64,000 nucleotides of DNA from Rugalucina vietnamica (taxonomy: Eukaryota > Mollusca > Bivalvia > Lucinida > Lucinidae), in contig OZ024869.1 in NCBI GenBank assembly GCA_964017185.1, positions 67,984,315-68,048,314 on the forward strand, written 5' to 3'. The position numbers and the translations under genes were made by a program. Position 1 is the stretch's first letter; each line of letters begins with the position of its first letter. Below are positions 2,343 to 59,300 of this stretch, piece after piece. The notes beneath the pieces are model-generated. The model saw nothing but the letters and a program-made list of their open reading frames with translations, made no database searches and was not told where the DNA came from.

Positions 2343-5300
2343 ACCCAGGGAGCCAAAAGTCTCTATCTCGCAAAAAAAGGTTGGAGGTGACATCTCCTGC
2401 TATAGTTGTTTTGAATGCTTTTTTGGATAGCTCTGACCTTCCAAAAGAAGGTCTAAGTGGACTGCTCTGGAAATTTTTTTGGCGCGATGCTTTAATCAGA
2501 CGGTATTTAGACGTACTATTTGTTATACAGCTGAAATACAGTAACACAAATATATTACGAACAGTCATATTTATATGTTTTCTTCAATATCGTATACTAT
2601 CCTGATGCCATTTTATCTTGTCTGATTGCAGCTGAGTATATCTTAGCCATGTATAAAGCTGTAAATGTGTCATTTGAGTAAACTATGTGTCATCTTAAGG
2701 CATTGAATTACCCCACCCACTTAATGTATGTTATACTTTATGTGCAATTATGAGAATCAATATATTTTTATCAGTACAATTTTATCAATAAATGTTGATG
2801 TAATCATTATTTTTATAACAATTAGTATTGCTTTTTATTGCCTTTTTTGCATATTCATGAATTTTTATTAAAACATTAAAATGAATAAACAGAAACAATT
2901 AAAAATGAATTATCCCATAAAAACTAATTTCAGACCTAAACTATCATTGTGGCTCATTGTTATTGCACCAATAGTACTATTTGACAAATTTTTGATGCCA
3001 TGAGCCTGAATAAAAATTCTCATTTGTATTTTCATGAATATTAATGAAAATGATGAAAATCAACTTTTTAATCTATTATCATTTGAAGTGTTTGTGATGC
3101 GTTATCTATAGGACATACCTTGCACCCTTAGAACAAATGCTCATGGGTGCCAGTTTGGTCAGGGGATCACTTTTAATGCCAATTTGTGTCACATAAAATC
3201 ACAGAGTGTTCACCCCCACCCCTAATAAACAGAGGAAGAAATATGGTACGCCTATATTACCATATGTATCTTGGCTACTGATAGACGTAGAGAGCAGAAA
3301 TAGGTATCAAATGATTGTTTGGACAATGTTCTATAGCCATGTAATAAGATATAAAACTCACACTGACTTCCTGGTGTTTGAATATCAATGAAAACTTTAT
3401 ATATTAGAAAAAATCACATAAAAAAGGAGTATACCAGCACAATTGCTTATATCTCAACAATCAAAAGATCTAGAGAGCTTAAATTGGTATCAACTGATTG
3501 CTATGACAATGTTCTATAACCATGTAATTAGAGATATGTAGACAAGCTGGCTAACTGAATGCTCAAATATTAAAGAGAACTTCAGATATTGGAGAAAAAT
3601 AACAGTTAAATGAACGGGGGTATACCAACAACATTGCTGATTTCTCAGCAACCAAAAATTCTAGAGATCTGAAATTTATATCAAATGATTGTTATGATAA
3701 GGTTCTTTAATAATGTGATAAAATACAGACATAATTTGACTTTCTTGGTGTTCAAATATTGATGAGAGCTTTCAGTATAAGAGAAAAATCACAGAACAAT
3801 GGAGGGGGTATACTTGCAGAAACGTTTATTGCTCAGCAAACAAAAGCCATAGAGAGCTGACATTGGTAACAAATAATTGCTATGACAACCACAAAATATG
3901 ATACATAAATAATCAGACTTTCGTACTGTTCGAATATTGATAAAAACTTAAAATATTAGAGAAAAATTACAGAAAATGGAGGGGGTATACCTACGGAAAT
4001 GTTTATATCTCAGCAACCAAAAGCCATAGAGATCACAAACTGGTATCAAAAGATTGCTATGCCTACATTCTATAACCGTGTATTAAGCTATATAAATAAG
4101 CTGACTTTCTCGTTGCTTCAATATTTAAGAAAACGTAAGATATAAGAGGAAAATCATTGGAATTCTAAGGGGCTATACCAATAAAATTGAAAATATCTTA
4201 GTGTGCAAAAGCTCTAGAGAGCTGAAAATGGTTTCAAATTATTGCTATGATAATGTTCTGTATTCATGTGATAAGACACATAAATACTACTACTTTCTTG
4301 TTGTTGGAATATTGATGAGAACTTTAAATATTAGATAAAAATCTCAGAAAAATAGAGGGGGTATATCAATAGAAACGTATATATCTCAGCAACCAAAAGC
4401 CATAGAGAGCTGAAACTGGTATCAAATAATTGTTATGACAAAATTCTATAAGCATGTAATAAGATATGTAAATTAGCTGACTTTCTTGTTGCTCCAATAT
4501 TTAATAAAACTTAAGATATAAGAGAAAAATCATTGGCAAACGAAGGAGGTATACCAATAAAATTGAAAATATCTTAGTGACCAAAAGCTCTAGAGAGCTG
4601 AAATTGGTTTCAAATTATTGCTATAATAATGTTCTATAATCATGTGATAAAACACATAAAAATACTACTTTCTTGTTGTTGGAATATTGATGAGAACTTA
4701 AAATATTAGATAAAAATCTCAGAAAAATAGAGGGGGGATACCAATAGAAACGTATATATCTCAGCAACCAAAAGCCATAGAGAGACGAAATTGGTATCAA
4801 ATAATTGCTATGACAAAATTCTATAACCATGTAATAAGATATATAAATTAACTGACTTTCTTGTTGCTACAATATTAATAAAACTTAAGATACAAGAGAA
4901 AAATCATTGGCAAACGAAGTGGGTATGCCAATAAAACTGCTACTATCTCAGTAACCAAATGCTGCAGAGGGCTGAAATTAGTATCAAATGATTGCTAGGA
5001 TAACGTTCTATAACCATGTGCTAAGACACACAAATAATCTGACTTACTTGTTTTTTTCGAATATTGATAAAAAAATTTAAATATTAGAGAAATGTCACAG
5101 AAACGTGGAGGGGGTATACCAACAAATCTTTATAACTCGGCAACCAAATGTCCTACAGAGATGAAATTGGCATCAAATGATTGCCATGATAATAATCTTT
5201 AACCAAATGATAAGATAATGAATATGTCAACTATTTTGTAGTTTAACTATTGATGATAACTTAAAATATTAGATACAAATCACAGAAATATAGAGGGGGT

Positions 5301-6033
5301 ATACCAACGGAAACGTTTATATCTCAGCAACCAAAATTCCTATAGAGCTGAAATTGGTATAAAATGATTGATATGACAATAATAAATAACTAACTAGATA
5401 CAATTGTAGTATTCCATAACCGCTTGCTTAAAGGCATGCATGATCAAGCCTTTGGAACAATGAGAACTTTCATCTGTCATCTTATAGGAAACGGTAATCT
5501 GACCATGGTCTTGGTCATGATGTAAATTTATAAAGAAACTGAATGACTAAAATAAACATAAATACATGTGTAATGTTTATGAGCACATCACATATTTATT
5601 TGTTCTTCAACATCTCACGAATCAATATCCATTAATTTAAATTTCATGATCCATATTATTATGTAAGTGGGTGGGGTAATTCAACATCATAAATACTGAA
5701 ACAACAGCTGCAAAAGTATTAATTAAACAATATAATAAGATAACTTATTACTCTGTGATTCCTAGCATTGCTCTAGACTAGAAAATTAAGCAGTTTATGA
5801 TCTGAAACACAAAGGATATGTTCATATATCTAGAAAACGTTTGTAATACGTAGGCAGCTCAAACAGCATGAAACAATGTGTAATTTAACCATCGCGCCAA
5901 AAAAAAATTCGTGAGCAGTCCACCCAGGCCTTCAATAGGATGGCAAAACCTAACTAAAATTGTATTCAAACCAACTATAGCAGGTGATGTCACCTCCTCT
6001 CCCCAAAACGGGGCTTGGCTCCCTGGGTATGTG
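2343..6033. repeat. Inner inverted-repeat pair nested in the foldback element
   Basis: About 150 bp at 2343-2496 (beginning CCCAGGGAGCCAA, containing CCTGCTATAGTTGTTTTGAA and ending GGCGCGATG) recurs in inverted orientation at 5885-6033. A second inverted pair lies inside it: 'attaccccacccactta' at about 2708 and 'taagtgggtggggtaat' at about 5663. This suggests one element nested in another, or a composite element with several terminal modules. No coding region is recognisable inside. Confidence 0.6.
3205..5395. repeat. Satellite array, ~187-bp unit, about 12 copies
   Basis: A unit of about 187 bp recurs roughly every 183-190 bp. The marker GGGGGTATACC appears near 3429, 3617, 3803, 3981, 4166, 4355, 4544, 4730, 4917, 5107 and 5293. 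Each unit then carries 'atatctcagcaaccaaaag', 'agagagctgaaattggtatc' and 'attgctatgacaatgttcta'. Copies differ by roughly 10-20% from one another, so this is not a recent expansion. It fills the core of the nested inverted-repeat element. Confidence 0.85.
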
Positions 6034-8597: not shown

Positions 8598-8833
8598 GGC
8601 CAGTTGTTTAAAGTTAACGATGTTGTTAGTTAACGATTCGTTTAAATTTTCAAATGACAATATTACCAATACACTTTTTTTTTTTTTTTTTTTTGTTAAA
8701 AAAATGCGAGAATCCTTTGCATTGCAAGGAATTTCCCATTGTTTCAACAAAAATAACAGTGTATTTGCTTTCGAAGTCGATATGTAGTTAACAAATTGAG
8801 GGCTTAACGACAAAGTTTTGAACAACTGTGCCC
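8598..8833. mobile_element. MITE, family C (GGGCCAGTTGTT ends), copy 1
   Basis: Terminal inverted repeats: left GGGCCAGTTGTTTAAAG, right TTTTGAACAACTGTGCCC. The interior is AT-rich with a further inverted pair around the oligo-T tract at about 8675. The same family recurs at about 19695 and 32287. No open frame of interest. Confidence 0.7.
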
Positions 8834-16040: not shown

Positions 16041-18389
16041 CTAAATTTGTGCACAGTTGCATAGTTCATCAGATATTTTGTGAAAATCATGATTGTCAAG
16101 CGCTCTACAAAGAACGTCTAGTGTAGCTCCGTGGCTTGTTGTGTCTATCCATTTATTCAACAAGCATCTCGTTATATACTCATAGTTAAGATGCTGGTGA
16201 TAAAACGATTCATACTGAGTATTTATGTCCTGTTCTGAGACACCAAGGTCTCTAAATATTTGCTTAGCCTTTCCGTTATCATAAATCATTTTGCTAGCTA
16301 ACTTTACAAGGTCGTCGTCAATTTTCAGAAGCTGTTTGGGATAATCTCTTCTAAGTTGCTGACTGGCTGTCATACAGCCTGAAAGAAAACAATTAACACC
16401 GTCATTTAATCAATCATAATCACATCTCGCTACAATGAATTATTGCAATAGTCAACCATTGCGTCCCTATGCTTTCAGCAAGTCACATGTAGAACCTACA
16501 TTTGAAATAACCGACTATTACAACTAAATCATACCTATCCATGAGTGTATTAATTTTAGGGGCTTTCACTATCATAGCCCTCACTGGTGTAAGAACTAAC
16601 CTGCTAAACTCTTACCTGGTCCTGAACGTGGCATGTTACTCGGCAACCCTGGCACTGGCTCACCCTCTCTATGATCAACTTCATTATAAAGCAGTAATGT
16701 ATCTGTCTCGATGTCGTTGTCTTTACCAAGGTTGTCCTTTGCAGTTGTAGCAACATCACCTAGCAAACTGCTATCTTTGCTAGCTATCGTATCACCGGAC
16801 ATTCCAATCGTATGGCCGCATCTTGTGGAGTCCGGGCGGGTTCTGTGTACCCAGAGGTAACGGGCAATGAACACCAAGACGATAAGCAATACGCCCGCAA
16901 ATGCCAACGAAATGGCTTGACCAATTTCCAACTCTAGCTCCTTGTAGTAAGCGCTGTCTCTAGCTTCGTTTTTAGGTCTCACAACTGGTTCATCTGTTTC
17001 AAAGATCAATTTTCAGTTTTTCTCATGTCATGAAAATTAAGCATGTTATGAGTCTTAATGAACAACAATAATACTAAAAATCGAAACTGCAGGTGTAGGC
17101 CAAGTTGCACTTTTGCAGAAGATATGAATTTCTCTGGGAGTGGTGATAAAACCATTGTTTTAGGATAAAATATAATTATTTTTATAATTTTATATAATTA
17201 TTAGTCAGTTAATGGTCGGTTATACTGTATATATAGCTTATTTACAAACATAATCCGTTACCTTCTGGTGATTGTGTGCTTGAAACGTTGTTTGATTCCG
17301 CAGGTGGCTTTGTACTATCTTTCATCGTGACTTCCGCAGAGTTTGGTCGTTTAGCGACGCATGGACTCTCAATGTTATCATCAACATCTTCGTAATCACT
17401 GAGGAAAAATAAGAATTAATTTACAGAAACGCCAATGCTTACTAAAATCTTTAACTAGTGTTAAAGCGTTAGGATATGTGAGCAATTTTAAGTGTCCATA
17501 TCTCACTACCTAGTCAATAATTTGTGATAGTTCGAGGCCCAGTGTCGACTGCCTTAACTAACTTGTATACTTTTATCCATTAATTATGCCCTAACAAGTA
17601 GTTTATAAGGGATCTAACCAACAGTACTGTATTCTTTATCTTCATCGTATATTGTCAGTGATGACACGACCATGAACAACATTAGACTAGACTCATACCT
17701 ATTGATGCAAGGCCCACAAAGCCCTGGGCTTGACCCACCACATGGTTTGTTTTCTTGTCTGTTAAGAGCCTCGCAATTCAGAAGGCACTTCATACATTCC
17801 ATTTGGCCGTATAAGCGATTGTTCCAGTAGCCAGTTTGGCATGGTCTGCAAGTCCGACACTCCAAAGCTATTTCATCCGAGTTCACGGCTACCTTTGGTA
17901 GATAACGATTTGATAGTTAACAAGTACCTTATGATGATTAACCATTCGGTCGGGACAAAACATAGGAGAAACACGCTGTCGAAACGTACGTTATACATGT
18001 AGAATGTGAAAACAAATATATTGTAGATACAGTTTCAGAATACTCGAAATTATTTTATTTAAATGATATTATACTTCTTAAGTTTTTATGATCTTCAATG
18101 TTAATTATCGTAAAGTGTTTATTGGCGTCAACAGGTACATTTGTAAAAGGGACAGTGCTGGTCACATCCCCTCGACAATTAAAACTGCAGGCATTAAACG
18201 TGTCTCTTTTTTATTGTTTACCTTTTCATTTAGGTCTACCCCCTCACCCGAGGGACAGTATTCACAGTCAACACACACTCCATCAGCAGTAAGCTTCTGG
18301 TCGGGGAAACAAAACGTTCCGCCAGATACTGCGTTTGAGAAAATGCTCAATTCCAACAACAAGAGTAAGTATATGTACATTTTGATCAT
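16041..18389 (-). CDS. TNF receptor superfamily member with death domain
   Basis: Five exons join in phase: 18389-18222, 17892-17699, 17398-17262, 16993-16616 and 16378-16041, total 1215 nt and 404 aa. Residues 1-20 are a signal peptide (MIKMYIYLLLLLELSIFSNA). Two cysteine-rich repeats follow (CVDCEYCPSGEG; CRTCRPCQTGYWNN... CGPCIN), then an acidic Ser/Thr/Pro-rich stalk and one membrane span at about 193-215 (SLAFAGVLLIVLVFIARYLW). The cytoplasmic tail has a death domain at about 305-385 (KLASKMIYDNGKAKQIFRDLGVS... LLNKWID... ATLDVLCRAL). The family binds TNF ligands at the cell surface and recruits death-domain adaptors. The cysteine spacing recalls the EDAR/TROY branch, but I do not assign an orthologue. 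All junctions are GT-AG. The first exon carries the start; any upstream UTR exon is not visible. Confidence 0.88.
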
Positions 18390-18517: not shown

Positions 18518-18731
18518 AATGAGCCGCGACGCGAGAAAACCGGTCTTCGGGGTTTCCGACCAGATTTGACACAAACAGGCCTGTACAGTCACATAAGATG
18601 GCTAGATAGTACTAGTACTATCCGAATAGCGAAAACAAAGTCGCTGATCAGCTTCGCAGTTACTGCGAAGCTGATCTGCGTCTTTGTTTTAGCATAGGAA
18701 AAAAATCCGGTTTTCTCATGGCGCGGCTCAT
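18518..18731. mobile_element. MITE, family B (GAGCCGC ends, GCTGATCAGCTTCGC hairpin), copy 1
   Basis: Left end TGAGCCGCGACGCGAGAAAACC, right end GGTTTTCTCATGGCGCGGCT. The centre is a perfect hairpin of GCTGATCAGCTTCGCAGT and its inverse. The family also contains 'tttccgaccagg' and 'ggcctgtacagtcacat'. The short frames it creates in many copies (CENKDADQLRSN and similar) are not genes. Confidence 0.8.
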
Positions 18732-19694: not shown

Positions 19695-19970
19695 AATTAA
19701 CGACATCGTTAGGTTAACGATTCATCAAAATTTCAAAGATGAATATTACAAATACACTTTACGACATCGTTAGGTGAATGATTCATCAAAATTTCAAAGA
19801 TGAATATTACAAATACACTGTTATTTTTTTTTTGTTGATAAAATGTGAGAATCCTCACATTTTATCAACAAAACCCAACAGTGTATTTGCTTACGCAGTC
19901 GGCATTTAATTTACGAGTTGAGGTCTTAACGATGACGTTAACCTAACGAAGTTTTGAACAATTGGTCCCT
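19695..19970. mobile_element. MITE, family C, copy 2 (left end lost)
   Basis: The right end GTTTTGAACAATTGGTCCC matches copy 1. The segment 'atcgttaggt(t/g)aa... catcaaaatttcaaagatg' is tandemly duplicated at 19703 and 19761, and an inverted pair of 'atcctcacattttatcaac' flanks about 19855. Confidence 0.6.
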
Positions 19971-30800: not shown

Positions 30801-33800
30801 TATAGTAAAACTGGGGTACGCAGGGGTAAACATATCTTTTATTATTTTTGTCCCAAAACATAGATTGTGGGTACAGAATTTTTCTACTGAAAATTTTTTA
30901 ATTTTTACAACTTAAAAAATCTCTGTATATTGCATGGGCGTGTTTTCGTAATGGTCAAAATCTGTATTTATCTATAATAAAAGTTTCCTTTTAAAAGGAA
31001 TGTTTGTCCGGCCAGTATTTAAAGAAATAAAAACAAGTACAAGTATTGGCCTGCATTATGCATAATGCACATGAATCTAATATTTCTGATTCATATTTAA
31101 GAGTAAGACATGTGTGGAACCCAGGTACCAATTAAAATACATCAGGATAGTAAAACCCAATTACATTTGAGCCACCTCGTAGAAAAACCAACAATGTGGT
31201 TTCCGACCAGGTCCGACACAAATCAGGCTGTACAGTCACATAAGCAGGCTAGAAGCTTGAAATTTTGGAGTTAAGTAGAGGAGGAATTGTACTATCCGAG
31301 TAGCGAAAACAAAGGCGCTGATCAGCTTCGCGGTTACCGCGAAGCTGATCTGCGTCTTTGTTTTCGCATATGCAGATTGTTGGTTTTCCCATGAGGCGGC
31401 TCATTTTAAGATAATGATATTACCTCTTTCTTGGCTTTGTAATACGACGGGTCAAACGACAGTCCCTGGTTCTTCATATTATCGTTGGTCGACGTCTCGT
31501 CACCGGCGATATCCATGAAGGTTCGCATACTGCTAGCTGCCGCCGTTTGCCTGAAACATTGCGTAAATGTAATAGCCTGTGCAAGAGAAAACCAACAATT
31601 TGGGTTTCCGACCAGGTCTTGTATAAACCAGGCTGTACAGTCACAGAAAAAGGCTAGAAGCTTGAAATTTCGGATTTAAGAAGAAGAGGGATAGTACTAT
31701 CCGTGAAGCGAAAGCAAAGATGCTGATCAGCTGTGCAGTTAGTGCACAGCTGATCTGCGTCTTTGTTTTCCCATATGCAGATTGTTGGTTTTCCCATGCA
31801 GCGGCTCGTATGTAAATTTGTAATTTGGATTTTCAAATCTTTTAATCTGAAATCGACTTAGGGCGTAGAATGGGCCCCGTAAAATCGATTTAAACTCTCC
31901 ATTCAATTCTTTTCTGGTCCCCGAGGTTATAAAACTTTTTTCATGCTCAACTCAGATGAGCATGAAATTTCAATTCCTCCTAAATACTGAAATAACCCAA
32001 ATATAATGAAACTGTTATTGCTATTTCGCTGGGAAAGCGCTAGTCATCTTGCTACATTGCGTTTAACGTCCCCGTCAACAATATTCATGTTGGAACGGAA
32101 CCACCGCTTCCTGAGAGTTACCTGGGGAGTTAATGTGTTTTGTTCAAGACACTGACTCCGTGTCGTCAGTGGGGATCGAACCCAGGTCCTTTCAAGTCGG
32201 AGTCTGATGCTCAACCACTACGTCACCGAGCTCTACATGCATAGTGTGAAATTTTATGTGATATCTGGTGTTGTTCTTTCCCTCCAGGGCCCAGTTGTTC
32301 AAAGTTTCGTTAGCTTAACGCTGTCTTTATGTCCTCAATTTGTTAACTATGTATTGACTTCAAAACACTGAAATACAAGTTATTTTTGTTGAAAGGATTC
32401 TCACATTTTTTCAACAACAAAAAAGTGTATTTGCAATATTGCCATTTGAAATTTTAACGAATCGTCAACGATACTTACTTTCCACTGGCTGAGGCGGCGA
32501 GGCGACAGATACTTACTTTCCTCTGGCTGAGGCGGCGAGGCGACAGATACTTACTTTCCTCTGGCTGAGGCGGCGAGGCAACAGATACTTACTTTCCTCT
32601 GGCTGAGACGGCGAAGCGACAGATACTTACTTTCCTCTGGCTGAGGCGGCGAGGCGATAGATACTTACTTTCCTCTGGTTGAGGCGGCGAGGCAACAGAT
32701 ACTTACTTTCGATACTTACTTCCCTCTGGCTGAGGCGGCGAGACGACAGATACTTACTTTCATCTGGCTGAGGCGGCGAGACGACAGATACTTACTTTCC
32801 TCTGGCTGAGGCGGCGAGGCGACAGATTCTTACTTTCCTCTGGCTGAGGCGGTGAGGCGACAGATATTTACTTTCATCTGGCTGTGGCGGCGAGGCGACA
32901 GATACTTACTTTCCTCTGGCTGAGGCGGCGAGGCGACAGATTCTTACTTTCCTCTGGCTGAGGCGGCGAGGCGACAGATACTTACTTTCCTCTGGCTGAG
33001 GCGGCGAGGCAACAGATACTTACTTTCCTCTGGCTGAGGCGGCGAGGCGACAGATACTTACTTTCCACTGGCTGAGGCGGCGAGGCGACAGATACTTATT
33101 TTCCTCTGGCTGAGGCGGCGAGACAACAGATACTTACTTTCCTCTGGCTGAGGCGGCGAGGCGACAGATACTTACTTTCCTCTGGCTGAGGCGGCGAGGA
33201 AACAGATACTTACTTTCCTCTGGCTGAGGCGGCGAGGCGACAGATACTTGTTTTCCTCTGGCTGAGGCGGTGAGGCAACAGATACTTACTTTCCACTGGC
33301 TGAGGCGGCGAGACGACAGATACTTACTTTCCTCTGGCTGAGGTGACAAGGCGACAGATACTTACTTCCCTCTGGCTGAGGCGGCTAGGCGACAGATACA
33401 CTTGATACCAATGCACGATTTTCTGAATTTCTCTTTCAACTGTAAATAGAAGATCAATAGAGAATGTGATTTTTCATAAACAACAAGTCAGTCAGTCAGT
33501 CAGGTCTTTCGGTTGTCGTGGGTTTTCCACGATACTAGGTATTAATAATATAACTTGCTTCCATCATATATATGACATTTGGTGCATTTGGTGCATTTGG
33601 GATTTATTGCAATTAATGACGTTACGTCGCGACATCGGTCACGTAGACGTCGTTTTTAAGGAGCAATCAGAACAGGACAGAACTGTTTACAGTGCAGTAG
33701 GTTGAAGAGCCAACAGGCACTCAGGGAAACCAGGGCAAGGAACAGATACAGAGAGGCCAGGAAATCAGCCATTGGGCATACTGGGAGATCAAATAACAGA

Positions 33801-35215
33801 AAAATTGGACTAAAAACAGTCAGTTACAGCACAGTTCAGAATCAACACAGTACATAACAGCACAGAGCAGCCAAATGACATACAGGGAAATGTGCAAACA
33901 GGATAGATACTTGTAACAGAGAAACAAAATATTGGAACTTGTATGCATGCAAACTGTTATATATAATTTCTATGTGGCAAAGAATAATTATGTGAAAATA
34001 TTAGAAACTGAGCTTATTCGTTCGGTCGGTCCGTCGGTCGGTCGGTCGGACAGTCAGTCAGTCGGTTCAAAATGTTGACATTTTACATGTAACATCTACT
34101 AGCAGGACAAATGACTGGCTATGGTAATTTGAATCTGAAAAAGTACCAATTTTGGCTGTTGTATGTATGAGCAGTTTTATTGTCATGCCAAGTTGAATTG
34201 AGAATGAAAACAATCTTTGTAAACTTGTGGTTCAAAATAAAGGATTTTTGGAGAACTTGGAGAACCACAAAGACCAAAGAAGACTGTAAGAAGCAAGAAA
34301 TATCGAGAGTTACATCGAGTTTTAATACACTTTACAAATTATGATCCAGAGTTCATCATTGTATATAGCAAAACGTAAACATGAGGCAAAAAAAAAAAAA
34401 AAAAAAAAAAAGTTTTCTTTGTTTCTGTTTGACTCGATGCAAAGCGTTCATAGTCAACAGTGTTATAAAGTCATGTTTAGGCGTTGAAAACATAATTATG
34501 ATACATGTACATAATAATCACTTTTATTATTAATTTATGCCATAGAGATTTTCAAAATAAGACAAAGTGACTACCTCTTTCGCCCTTATTTTTCGTGCCA
34601 TTTCATCCATCTTCGCCCTTTGGATTGCTACTGATGGTCTTGATGACTTCTTGCCAGACGGGGAACCAGTCCCTGCGGAGTCGGGGGAAGAGCTATAGAA
34701 CTCGTCCACTGATCTTGTCGAGCTCATAGTCCTGCTCGGACTCTTATCGAGTACAGGAAGGTCTATGGATATGGACCGGAGGGACCTACTGCTCCGCTGT
34801 GACGTTGGTCTTATAACGTCAAGACCCTGAGGAGCCGGTGCTGGGGTTGGTGATGGACCTGAGAAAAAATAATGTTTTGAAAGCATTTTAAGTTTTAACT
34901 GTACGATATTTAAAAATCTAACATCTAGCAATTAATGGTGCCATTTGTAAATGTGACAATAGTATATTAGCCTGTGCATGAGAAAACAAACAATTTGGGT
35001 TCCGACCAGGTGCGACAAATACCGGCCTGTACAGGCACAGCAGAAAGCTAGAAGCTTGCAACTTTGGATATAAGTAGAAGAGGAATTGTATTATCCGTGT
35101 GGCGAAAACAAAGGCGCTGATCAGCTTTTCAGTTACTGCACAGCTTATCTGCGTCTTTGTTTTCGCAAATGCAAATTGTTTGTTTTTTTTTTTTTTTTTT
35201 TTTTTTGTTGTTGTT

Positions 35216-40200: not shown

Positions 40201-43200
40201 TGATAAACATCCTGATGAATCAAAACCCAGGACTCACAGATTGAGTAAGCTGCCCGACGATGGAGATCCCTGGGCGCCGAATAACCTACTAACTCCGGAG
40301 CAAAAGAAAAACACCAGTTGGACCCCGGTGGGCCAAGCAACAGACAAGAAGCTCCGGCCCCAACCAACTAAAATGAATAGCTTTAAGTCGGGGCCATCAT
40401 AGAGTCTGACGCCCGACCCACCGGCGTGCAATTAAAGAAGGCAGCATAGTTATCAACCATGATTGGGTTAAAAACTAAGCATGCAGACTGTCGCATAACA
40501 TTCAAGTTATAACCTATACGTCTGTAACGTGTTATGATTTTTCTGAACTGAAAAGAAAAATCGTTAATTCCTTTAAGTTTCTTAAATTTGTAAACCAAGT
40601 CACCATAAAGTCGTATGTCTTCAAAATGTGGCTGCATGCCTATATAGAGATGTAGCCACATTTTCCGATTTTACTATAAAGTCGTATGTCTTCAAAATGT
40701 GGCTGCATCCCTATATAGAGACGTAGCCACATTTTCCGATTTAACTATAGAGTCGTATGTCTTCAAAATGTGGCTGCATGCCTATATAGAGATGTAGCCA
40801 CATTTTCCAATTTTACTATAAAGTCGTTTGTCTTCAAAATGTGGCTGCATGCCTATATAGAGATGTAGCCACATTTTCCGATTTTTCTATAAAGTCGTTT
40901 GTCTTCAAAATGTGGCTGCATGCCTATATAGAGACGTAGCCACATTTTCCGATTTAACTATAAAGGCGTATATCTTCAAAATGTGGCTGCATGCCTATAT
41001 AAGAGACGGAACCACAATAACATCAGCATCTACACCTTGTGCATTTTTGCCTAATATGGAATACTATCGATGATAGAAACTCAATATCAAATTGCTATAT
41101 ATAGCGATGCATCCACATTTCTTGAAAATTCATGAAATTGAATGGAATAGGCGCTGCATCCACATTTTGAAGAAATACAACATATAATGGAAAAAATGAA
41201 AAATGTGGATGCATCTCTATATAGGCGGTGCATCCACATTTTGGCAAAATACAGGGATATTACAGGGGATAAATAGGTCAGTGTGGAATACTATCGATGA
41301 TAGAAACTCCATATATAGTACCTCTATATAGTCAGTGCATCCACATTTTGACAAAATACATAGATATTACAGGGGATAAATAGGACAGTGTGGAATACTA
41401 TCGATGATAGAATACTCCATATATAGTACCTCTATATACGCGGTGCATCCACATTTTGACAAAATACATAGATATTACAGGGGATAAATAGGACAGTGTG
41501 GAATACTATCGATGATAGAAACTCCATATATAGTACCTCTATATTGCGGTGCATCCACATTTTGACAATTTTCAAGGATATTACAGGGGATAAATAGGAC
41601 AGTGTGGAATACTATCGATGATAGAAAGTCCATGTATAGAGGTACTATATATGGAGTATTTTATCATCGATAGTATTCCACACTGTCCTATTTATCCCCT
41701 GTAATATCTATGTATTTTGTCAAAATGTGGATGCACCGACTATATAGAGGTACTTTATATGGAGTATTCTATCATCGATAGTATTCCACACTGTCCTATT
41801 TATCCCCTGTAATATCTATGTATTTTGTCAAAATGTGGATGCACCGCAATATAGAGGTACTATATATGGAGTTTCTATCATCGATAGTATTCCACACTGT
41901 CCTATTTATCCCCTGTAATATCTATGTATTTTGTCAAAATGTGGATGCACCGACTATATACAGGTACTATATATATAAAGATGCATTAACCACATTTCTC
42001 GAAAATTCATAATACTGGGTGGATTCATCGCTCGGCATGAAGTCGTGACGCTGAAATGGTCATGGGCCGAAATGGCTATGGGCCGAAATGACCCGGAACC
42101 GGTATGTTTATCCGGTACCGTGTTTTAGTATTTTAGAACAGTAAAGCGGGAAAACATGGCGGCTGTGTTTTTTACGCGAGAAAACGCAGGAAAAACAGAA
42201 AAACAGGTAGTTTTAAGGATGTTCGCTGCTAACATTTGACATTTCGGAACTTCCGGTTTTTCTTTTGTTGAATATCTCGTAAACGGTTGCAGATATTTTC
42301 CTAATATTTTATATTTGGATACATATTGATGATATGCCTTGAATGGGTCATGAAAATTGTCAATCTAAGAAACTTCATTTTTTCACCCCATTTTCTGCAA
42401 CTTTTCAGAAAATTTTAGTTGTTAGTAAAATTTAGGGGGTAGGGTAGATTAAACTTGAATATTATACATCTTCAAAATAATTGCACTAGTTCGATGTTTA
42501 TTTTAGCTGCAGTATATGTGTACATGGTCTTCTAAGTCAGTCTTTGTGTCTTTGATGTGCTGGTTTTAAAATTTTAGTTGGTTTTATGAAATGGGCTTTA
42601 AGAAACAAAGCGGCCGAAAAAAGGCAGAAAATGGCGATTTTCAAGTTGTTGGTTCTCTCTTATATGCACACTACCCTATATATTTCTTTCTTTTATTCGA
42701 ACAATATTACCACGGTCTATGATTTGTGAAAATACAAGAAAAAGTTTGAATCAACAAATATGGGTTTGGCACATTTCAAAATATTGAGTTTTTCCGACTT
42801 TTCAAGAATGGGGGTAGGGTTGAAAAATAAATCGTAAAATTTTGTCATCCACTTCAAGTTGCAAATTTTTCTATGCTTTGGGTCCGAAATGGTCTGAATT
42901 ACATAAATATTATGACTTTTGAAAGCATTCTATGTGTATTTTTGTTCAAGACAGATATGTTTCAAAGAATTAAAAATTAAATTAATTTTAATAAATTTAA
43001 AACATGGTGCGCAGAGGTCCCATTCAGAGGCATGTAGCTTGAAAAAATGCACACTACCCTATATTTATTTTGTTTTCAAATGTCTTGTGTTGTATTTTGG
43101 AATCAAAAAAGAGTGGTTAGAAAAAAAGTTTGAATACTTTTTCATTGGCAGCGAACATCCTTAAACATATAATGTGCCTATCGAATGTGATATATAGACT

Positions 43201-56334: not shown

Positions 56335-59300
56335 ATAGGATAATCGAATACCAACGACTTTCCTGTATAGATATATAATAAAGATATTTTCATAATCATA
56401 ATTCATTATCATCGCCGTTTGGAAGAACATTTTCCCTGAAATTCTGCAGCCAAATTTACAATGTTTGCTTTATATGGCCATTCGTATAGCTTACTATTTA
56501 AAAGCATTGCAAAAATCACACAATGTCCAATTTGCATGTTTAGCATTTTTGTGTTTTATTCGCAGGTTAATGCATCATTTGGCCTCATTAGCATCAAAGA
56601 GTTTGATCTCTCTTCCGGAAACATGGTAGCCACTGGCTATCTCCAGATTTCGTGGTATGACGAACTGTTGGTGTGGGATCCTACAGAATTCGGTGGAATA
56701 AAGAAACTGAATGTGCCTAATGATTACAATTGGAGACCCGGGCTGGCGTTCAGTAGAAGCAGCGAAGAAGACTCACTTTTAACCTCAACTGTATTTGCCC
56801 AAACATGGGTTTATTGTTCTGGGCACGTTGTTTTGGTAACAGGTGGTCATTTTCATACAATATGTGACCTTGACACGACGCAGTACCCGTTCGACAAGCA
56901 TTCGTGTAACTATGAGTTGATTTCTACAAGTTATGATTCGGAGGAAGTTATATTACACTCTCCCCAGCCCAAGATAAATCTTGACCACTACATAGAAAAC
57001 GGTGAATGGTATCTAATAGACACCCTTTGCATACCTGGATCAATTACTGGCACGACTACTTGTGACTCCGTTAAAATTGCTACTTTGAATAATATTATTC
57101 AGATCAAACGCAGACCAGAATTCGTATTGATGCATGCAGCTGGTCCGTTATTTTTCATGGATGCACTCTGTATCGTTGTCTGCTTAGTACCAATTGACTC
57201 GGGAGAGAGAATCTCGTATTCTGTTACAGTATTTTTGGCGTTCATTTTCCTGAGCGGGTCCATTATTGCAGATATGCCTCGAAATTCTTTAAAACTGACG
57301 ACGCTTTCGTGGGAACTCTTTTCCGTGAACCTTCTCAGCACGTTCAACGTTCTATGGAGCGTTTATGTCGTTCGGCTCTCCCGACGCCGCGGTAAACACA
57401 CGGATTTACCGCGAGCGTTCCGATTTGCCGTTCATGTCGTTAAACGCATATCAAATGGGATATCGAAACGGAATAAAGCTCTGAGTTGCGGGGATAGAAG
57501 TGAAAGCAAGGACACTGTAACGGTTAATAGTGATGAACAAGAAGTCATTCGCAAGATTGATGGAAAGAATGCCTATATTTTTGACGATGAACACTTTCAA
57601 TGGCAGGAAACCATCAAAATGCTTGATATGGCTTATTTCCTCGTCAACCTCGCGTGCTATACGTTTATGATAGTAACGGTGACGATTGTTTTCTCAGCTT
57701 ATCTTAACTGATAAAGATGAAAGAGAACAATACAATCGGAATAACAAAATAAAGTTTATCTTAAAATGGGCTACATCGGTCATTGTGTTATTGAAGTTTA
57801 ACATCCTAATCGAAAAAACGATGTGGATGGACTAGATTTAATCAGAACTTTTCCTTATCAAGAGCTACATTTGGGACAAAGAATTGTTCGGAGAAAGTTG
57901 TTACAAGCTATATTGTGGTCACCGAGAAACAAATTAAATACATTTGCGTTGAAAAGAATTGACATGACGTCAATTGTTATTGATCTGCTTTCGTGGCAAC
58001 TTTTGAAAACAAAGTAAATACAATATTGTCTAGTTATTCCGCACGCTAAATGGGAATTAAACTGGGGTAGCTATGGGGATTTATAATTGCAAAACACTTA
58101 TTATTGCGTTGCTTATTTAGCTCTCAAATCCCTAAAGCTCAGAATAAATCATTTTTATTGTATTTGTAAGAATTCAGTCACGGACATGTATAATATAAAT
58201 TTAGATGAAATCGTTCTTGATCATTCTCAACACGTTTTGATTTCAGTTTTATCTATCAAATCATGTCATGTCCTGAAATGCCAGTCACTTTGAATTTTTG
58301 GCTAACTTTCTTCTTGAGGACATGAATAAGCTGATATGAGTCTTCTTTGTGTGCCAATACCATACATGTACTTCTCAAAATTTGTAAGGATCACACCCTG
58401 GCAGCATAATACCAGAAGGTTCATAACCACTGCCTATTCCAAATTTTAGACAACTTTGATGGACTGTTGTACATGTAAACTGAGAAGTTTGGTCAAATTG
58501 TCTTTCTTCATTTTGTCAATCATGTGGCCTGCGTCCAGACAGTGATAAAATTTGCCTAAACTGAACACCAGGCGAATGGGTATAAAGGTTGAACTTTTTC
58601 AAAGAAGCGTTTCATCACAAAATTCAAGGGTCTGTGATTACTAGTGAGCTGTGGGTTTTCAAAATGTTTCTGTATGAGATCGAAATGGGCGTGACCCTGT
58701 CAAAGTCTGGGTAGAATTAAACCATTAAACAAGATAAAGTGGAAACTGTAAGTATTACGTATAATGCGGCTTTCACACTAGAGCACGATCTGTTACGATT
58801 GCCACGATTGACAAATCGCAGCTAATCGGGACATTTTGCCAAAATTTGACGTTCTGATACGAGTCGTTGCGTTTTGATACGATCTGTTGCGATCTGATAC
58901 GATAGGGTGGCGATCGGTCAAAATCTGGTGACACGATATCGGTCCCGGATAGATACGATTAGTTGCGGTCCGATAAGATCATTACGATTAAACCCCGATT
59001 CTAATGCGATCTGACACGATTATCACGATACTTGACCGCGATTTGATACGAACTGATACGATTAGATGCGTTCTGGTACGAGTCTCAAGAACTGATACGA
59101 TATGTTGCGATAGTTTACGATTGTTGGCTTGATTTTTGGCGATTGTGGCCACGATTGTGTCACGATAAGACCGCGATTGGTATATTTACTTCGAAAACAA
59201 ACATATACCTCATTACGTTTTTAATCTCTGAAGACGAAACAACATTGAAGGAGGAGCAGAGAATGACGAGAATGCGACATTTGCATTATTAATGCCTTAT

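Follow-up and report, generated by a model that had tools for sequence, protein, structure and literature searches.

In the bivalve Rugalucina vietnamica, the predicted intron 4 of a gene that we take to be CNBD2-like, following the label of the first-pass annotation rather than a database match, begins with a minisatellite whose unit consists of the end of exon 4 and the exon's own splice donor. We regard it as likely that this exon-junction array is tolerated, perhaps leaking into non-productive messages, and that the first donor gives the full protein. The window, i.e. the whole stretch of DNA that was analysed, comprises 64,000 nucleotides, and the features on which the argument is built are collected in Table 1.

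In the predicted gene model, exons 3, 4 and 5 join in phase. Intron 4 begins at 33365 with the GTAAGT of unit 1, while its acceptor is found at 31551, outside the array. Exon 4 had been proposed to end with the first unit, and we place its end inside that unit (33366, within 33394-33357), with phases that fit the neighbouring exons. The PDB matches of the downstream exons are cNMP-binding proteins, e.g. regulatory subunits of cAMP-dependent kinase. The join of exon 6 to exon 7 is out of frame in the model, so that one exon or boundary is missing there; exon 4 is unaffected by this. A search of the genome with a 113-aa peptide covering exons 3-6 revealed no paralogue at E < 1, but only exons of the gene itself (three) and one weak place at E 5. 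Exon 5 is flanked by two copies of a short repeat in the same orientation (31165-31408 and 31570-31811), which are 85% identical over 220 bp and have further relatives near 18551, 19339, 34965 and 55031. Unequal exchange between the two flanking copies would delete exon 5. Intron 4 also carries a putative tRNA-like SINE head on the minus strand (GTTCGATCCCC, 32040-32230), recognised by eye.

The 24-fold repetition of a 38-bp unit, already noted in the first-pass annotation, was borne out by two approaches. TRF reported a tandem array at 32470-33399 with a period of 38 and 24.1 copies, and an ungapped scan of the minus strand placed 24 units, each 38 bp long, between 33394 and 32470. Their mean identity to the consensus is 96%. 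A 28-nt core of the unit, allowing up to 3 mismatches, was matched 24 times in the window compared to a mean of 0 over 100 shuffles. In unit 1, the consensus TGTCGCCTCGCCGCCTCAGCCAGAGGAAAGTAAGTATC spans 29 nt at the end of exon 4 and the 9 nt with which intron 4 begins. That the unit is an exon end plus its own donor thus holds, but the makeup of 31-32 exonic nucleotides plus 8 has to be corrected to 29 plus GTAAGTATC, or to 30 plus 8 by rotation. The sequence GTAAGT occurs 20 times across the array (in 19 of the 24 units and once in a 13-bp fragment), and GT is retained in 22 of 24 units. It was right that most downstream copies keep a perfect GTAAGT (18 of 23 units). The number of decoy donors, given before as 23, amounts to 21 GT-bearing units, of which 18 are perfect and 3 weaker (units 12, 14 and 15), plus the one in the fragment, since units 4 and 8 have lost their GT. 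TRF rows of 89 bp and 51 bp fit 76 + 13 and 38 + 13 and are therefore taken to reflect the 13-bp fragment. Higher-order structure was not detected among the units, as variants shared by lag were no more frequent than in shuffles (lowest P 0.15, for lag 3).

Table 1. Positions of gene, array and repeat features within the window
Feature	Position	Strand	Description and basis
Exon 3, CNBD2-like gene (label assumed)	34575..34858	-	acceptor TTCTCAG, donor GTAGTC, ends in phase 0; placed by open frame, splice signals and phase
Exon 4, 74 nt, LKEKFRKSCIGIKCICRLAASARG + 2 nt	33366..33439	-	exonic part of unit 1 formed by its last 29 nt; ends in phase 2
GTATC in exon 4, directly before unit 1	33395..33399	-	same five bases at intron +5 to +9; microhomology 38 bp apart; read from the sequence
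Unit 1	33357..33394	-	coding part and predicted true donor GTAAGTATC, GT at 33365-33364; ungapped scan
Units 2-24, in intron 4	32470..33356	-	18 perfect GTAAGT, 3 weaker GT, 2 without GT, plus the 13-bp fragment with GTAAGT; ungapped scan
Partial unit of 13 bp, GAAAGTAAGTATC, between units 18 and 19	32698..32710	-	ungapped scan
Inverted-repeat (MITE-like) element at the inner edge of the array	32286..32469	-	first ~33 bp missing here
Exon 5, 127 nt	31424..31550	-	acceptor TTTCAG, donor GTAATA; supplies the rest of the AAG codon that intron 4 interrupts
Exons 7-10, cyclic-nucleotide-binding domain	30207-30119, 29767-29694, 29112-29024, 28498-28347	-	PF00027, E 4.6e-15

An unrelated 38-bp satellite elsewhere in the genome would have spoken against an origin of the array at this exon. 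In the 1.09-Gb assembly (47 contigs), a 26-base pattern of the unit, allowing 3 mismatches at most, gave 24 matches, all 24 inside this array, while the reversed control gave 0. A DNA search with exon 4 and the array, which skips very common words, likewise returned a single genome place. By these searches the unit is present only in this array, and an unrelated satellite as well as a dispersed or transposon-borne repeat was rejected as its source.

Other repeats and coding segments are present in the window. A tandem array at 3723-5381 has a period of 188 bp (score 1289) and a double period of 376 bp (score 1740), possibly a higher-order repeat. At 41215-41974, two arrays of 107-108 bp units stand head to head, by eye as reverse complements, near a 71-bp array (40605-41006). 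An open frame of 827 aa with a reverse transcriptase domain (PF00078; 43388-45871, minus) represents a long retroelement frame. On the plus strand, an unbroken frame of 423 aa (56440-57711) matches a neurotransmitter-gated channel ligand-binding domain and, below the threshold, the membrane domain. Likely receptor exons at 16041-17916 (minus) contain a death domain (PF00531) just above the cut-off and, by eye, a cysteine-rich stretch (17614-17916).

The first-pass annotation held that later donors lead to a premature stop and that only the first gives full-length protein, and the translations agree with this. From the first donor, exon 4 reads ...ARG-K, the last codon being completed by exon 5. 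Extensions by one, two or three units in the frame of the exon all end in ...ARGK* with TAA directly after, so that among these four forms the frame is open from the first donor alone; longer extensions contain the same stop. As 38 nt is not divisible by three and a stop comes with the unit, none of the longer forms is productive. Use of a later donor would add 38n nt (38n+13 past the fragment) with an immediate TAA, and such messages should enter nonsense-mediated decay. The two deviations of unit 1 from the array consensus are both synonymous. Changes in codons 1-9 of the exonic part of units 2-24, in contrast, comprise 6 synonymous and 19 non-synonymous ones as well as 2 stops. Judged from the sequence, this pattern is as expected if unit 1 alone is coding.

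The growth of the array from the exon end and its own donor, as proposed before, is supported by the makeup of the unit. From this anatomy, slippage or unequal exchange would have duplicated the segment between the exonic GTATC and the GTATC ending at intron +9. Exactly the observed unit would result from such a first duplication, and expansion to 24 copies may then have followed by the usual minisatellite turnover.

A different origin of the donor would involve the adjoining inverted-repeat element. Two other copies of it are present in the window (8600-8830 and 19700-19970), and elsewhere in the genome it has at least 41 further matches in at least 39 places, with 40 of 344 candidates scored. 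Thirty-five of these 41 align from 32469 inwards. In copies with both ends the terminal repeat of ~33 bp comes first, and most are 185-255 bp long, one 306; a pair of ends was obtained from 21 of 27 fetched loci and none from 6, with one pair kept at each of three loci that had several. If the element supplied the donor, both the exon edge and GTAAGTATC would derive from its left terminal repeat, with later shortening and amplification, which we consider quite improbable. The array end can be aligned to the left end of the element, but with several gaps. With ordinary gap costs, shuffles gave P 0.11-0.33 for three of four reference ends and 0.03 for the fourth, and comparison with random window stretches gave P 0.13-0.60, none of the four ends being above chance. 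Gentle gap costs, which were chosen afterwards, yielded P 0-0.013 by shuffles, but 0.03 and 0.10 for two ends compared to random window stretches. In addition, the 7-mer GAGGGAA, with which exon 4 ends, is found again immediately past the right end of the element. The flanks of 21 other copies (16 nt each, compared to 20-nt stretches at the array locus; the window copy near 8600 was left out despite its pair of ends) share no word of fixed length. However, a 7-mer is likewise common to both flanks in one of these 21 copies, and the recurrence of GAGGGAA therefore stays a weak lead. If it is not due to chance, the element may have taken part in making the junction, which would count against our main reading. 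The alignment and flank tests do not support an element-derived donor.

Since the unit carries the last 29 nt of the exon and the whole donor, most copies would be donors about as good as the first. With donor scores based on human frequencies, unit 1 reaches 3.50 and unit 2, like others with AAAGTAAGT, 3.46. Of the 3512 minus-strand GTs outside the array, 58 equal or exceed the score of unit 1. All perfect copies share the same 8 contiguous bases complementary to U1. In a fold model the predicted chance of the donor hexamer being unpaired is 0.136 for unit 1 and 0.03-0.50 for the other units. Within these models, neither donor score nor predicted accessibility favours the first donor, and accessibility was rejected as a reason for its use, as unit 1 is not special in the fold model. 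The first donor would be used frequently enough for the array to be tolerated. In DOK7 minigenes, the intron-proximal donor was preferred, though it was also the stronger site (PMC5585400). By analogy, an intron-proximal site can win among near-equal donors, and if this applies here, most messages would be non-productive.

Similar donor strength over most of the array, with TAA at once after every later donor, is also what would be needed if the ladder competes with the first donor and its copy number sets the productive fraction, with selection for this tuning. Altered splicing by VNTRs has been reported for ABCA7 and MIR137. Tuning by splice competition, raised in the first-pass annotation, was however left unsupported by the pattern of changes. 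Compared to the consensus, 6 of 138 donor-hexamer sites are changed in units 2-24 and 27 of 736 other sites (Fisher P = 0.63), or 16 of 598 if the other sites are restricted to non-CpG (P = 0.28); with 24 units weak selection is still possible, and the sites are not independent, as changes may be shared by descent. The decoy donors are kept no better than the rest of the unit. The accessibility of unit 1, neither the highest nor the lowest, and its donor score, close to those of the other copies, do not set it apart either. We consider selected tuning unlikely, and we have similarly low expectations of a length-dependent form of it, in which longer alleles would send more U1 to non-productive donors, copy number would set the output and forms with a 48-nt cassette would be a minor by-product. 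The downstream copies may instead bind U1 without splicing and thereby help to define the short exon 4 or shield the intron from early polyadenylation. Eighteen units and the fragment offer 19 extra perfect GTAAGT for this. Exon skipping is corrected by modified U1 particles that bind downstream of a donor (PMC4822034), and suppression of polyadenylation by U1 has been reviewed (PMC3826338). Nevertheless, the GTAAGT sites are kept no better than other unit sites. Exon 4 already has a higher-scoring donor than exons 3, 5, 7 and 10, although exons 6, 8 and 9 surpass it, and such a platform for U1 appears doubtful. We give even less credit to the array as a source of cassettes, in which the CAG of one unit would act as acceptor and, together with the donor of the next unit, form a 48-nt exon of 16 residues in frame; this seems very improbable. 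Eighteen of 22 neighbouring pairs in units 2-24 give an open in-frame insert of 48 nt, 16 of them with a GT donor; this count omits the pair of units 1 and 2 (19 of 23 with it), whose acceptor is inside exon 4 and cannot serve. The pyrimidine fraction before CAG (0.70-0.75 in four units) falls within the 0.45-0.80 spanned by eight real acceptors, with T scarcer than in most of these. The acceptor of unit 2, however, would be ~28 nt from the first donor, too short for a usual intron. Recursive splicing was rejected, as by inspection the consensus unit has no AG directly before GT. Nothing in the sequence indicates that the array is retained for a purpose, and a tolerated exon-junction minisatellite is the reading that we favour.

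The human IFI6 (6-16, G1P3) minisatellite, the closest precedent, reportedly consists of 26 units of 12 nt, in an array that starts near the end of a coding exon. Like that array, the one described here begins in coding sequence and continues into the intron, and its units supply several donors, here predicted, after one exon. In IFI6 the multiple splice donors give rise to three mRNA species (Turri, Cuin and Porter 1995, NAR 23:1854, via PMC4526556). While later units of IFI6 give protein isoforms, the 38-nt unit shifts the frame and brings in TAA, and later donors are non-productive. The build resembles that of the IFI6 minisatellite, with the difference that later donors cannot give the full protein. 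Intron gain by tandem duplication (Rogers model) has been described for potato RdRp and for 24-bp repeats in fission yeast (PMC4974935). Those cases share with the present array that splice signals are carried by tandem copies of a segment from an exon or its edge; in them, several copies of a short exonic unit can be removed by splicing. In contrast to the AGGT model of intron gain, the unit consensus has by inspection no AGGT, and intron 4 has its acceptor 0.9 kb past the array; a new intron by the repeat alone is therefore not indicated. Intronic VNTRs have been linked to changed splicing in ABCA7, MIR137 and TERT (VNTR6-1). These are likewise tandem repeats in or near the transcript of a gene, but in the accessible parts of the reports their units are not described as the exon's own end plus donor, which is exactly what the unit is here. 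A literature search of partial coverage yielded nothing on minisatellite donors by combined terms, nor on mollusc tandem repeats at splice sites, which does not prove their absence.

The choice among near-equal donors is an old question that is usually studied with two-site minigenes. The array of R. vietnamica offers a natural experiment on it, with about twenty near-identical donors, almost all spaced by 38 nt, of which one is productive. It also illustrates how a gene may acquire false donors by slippage at the edge of an exon, the outermost donor alone giving protein.
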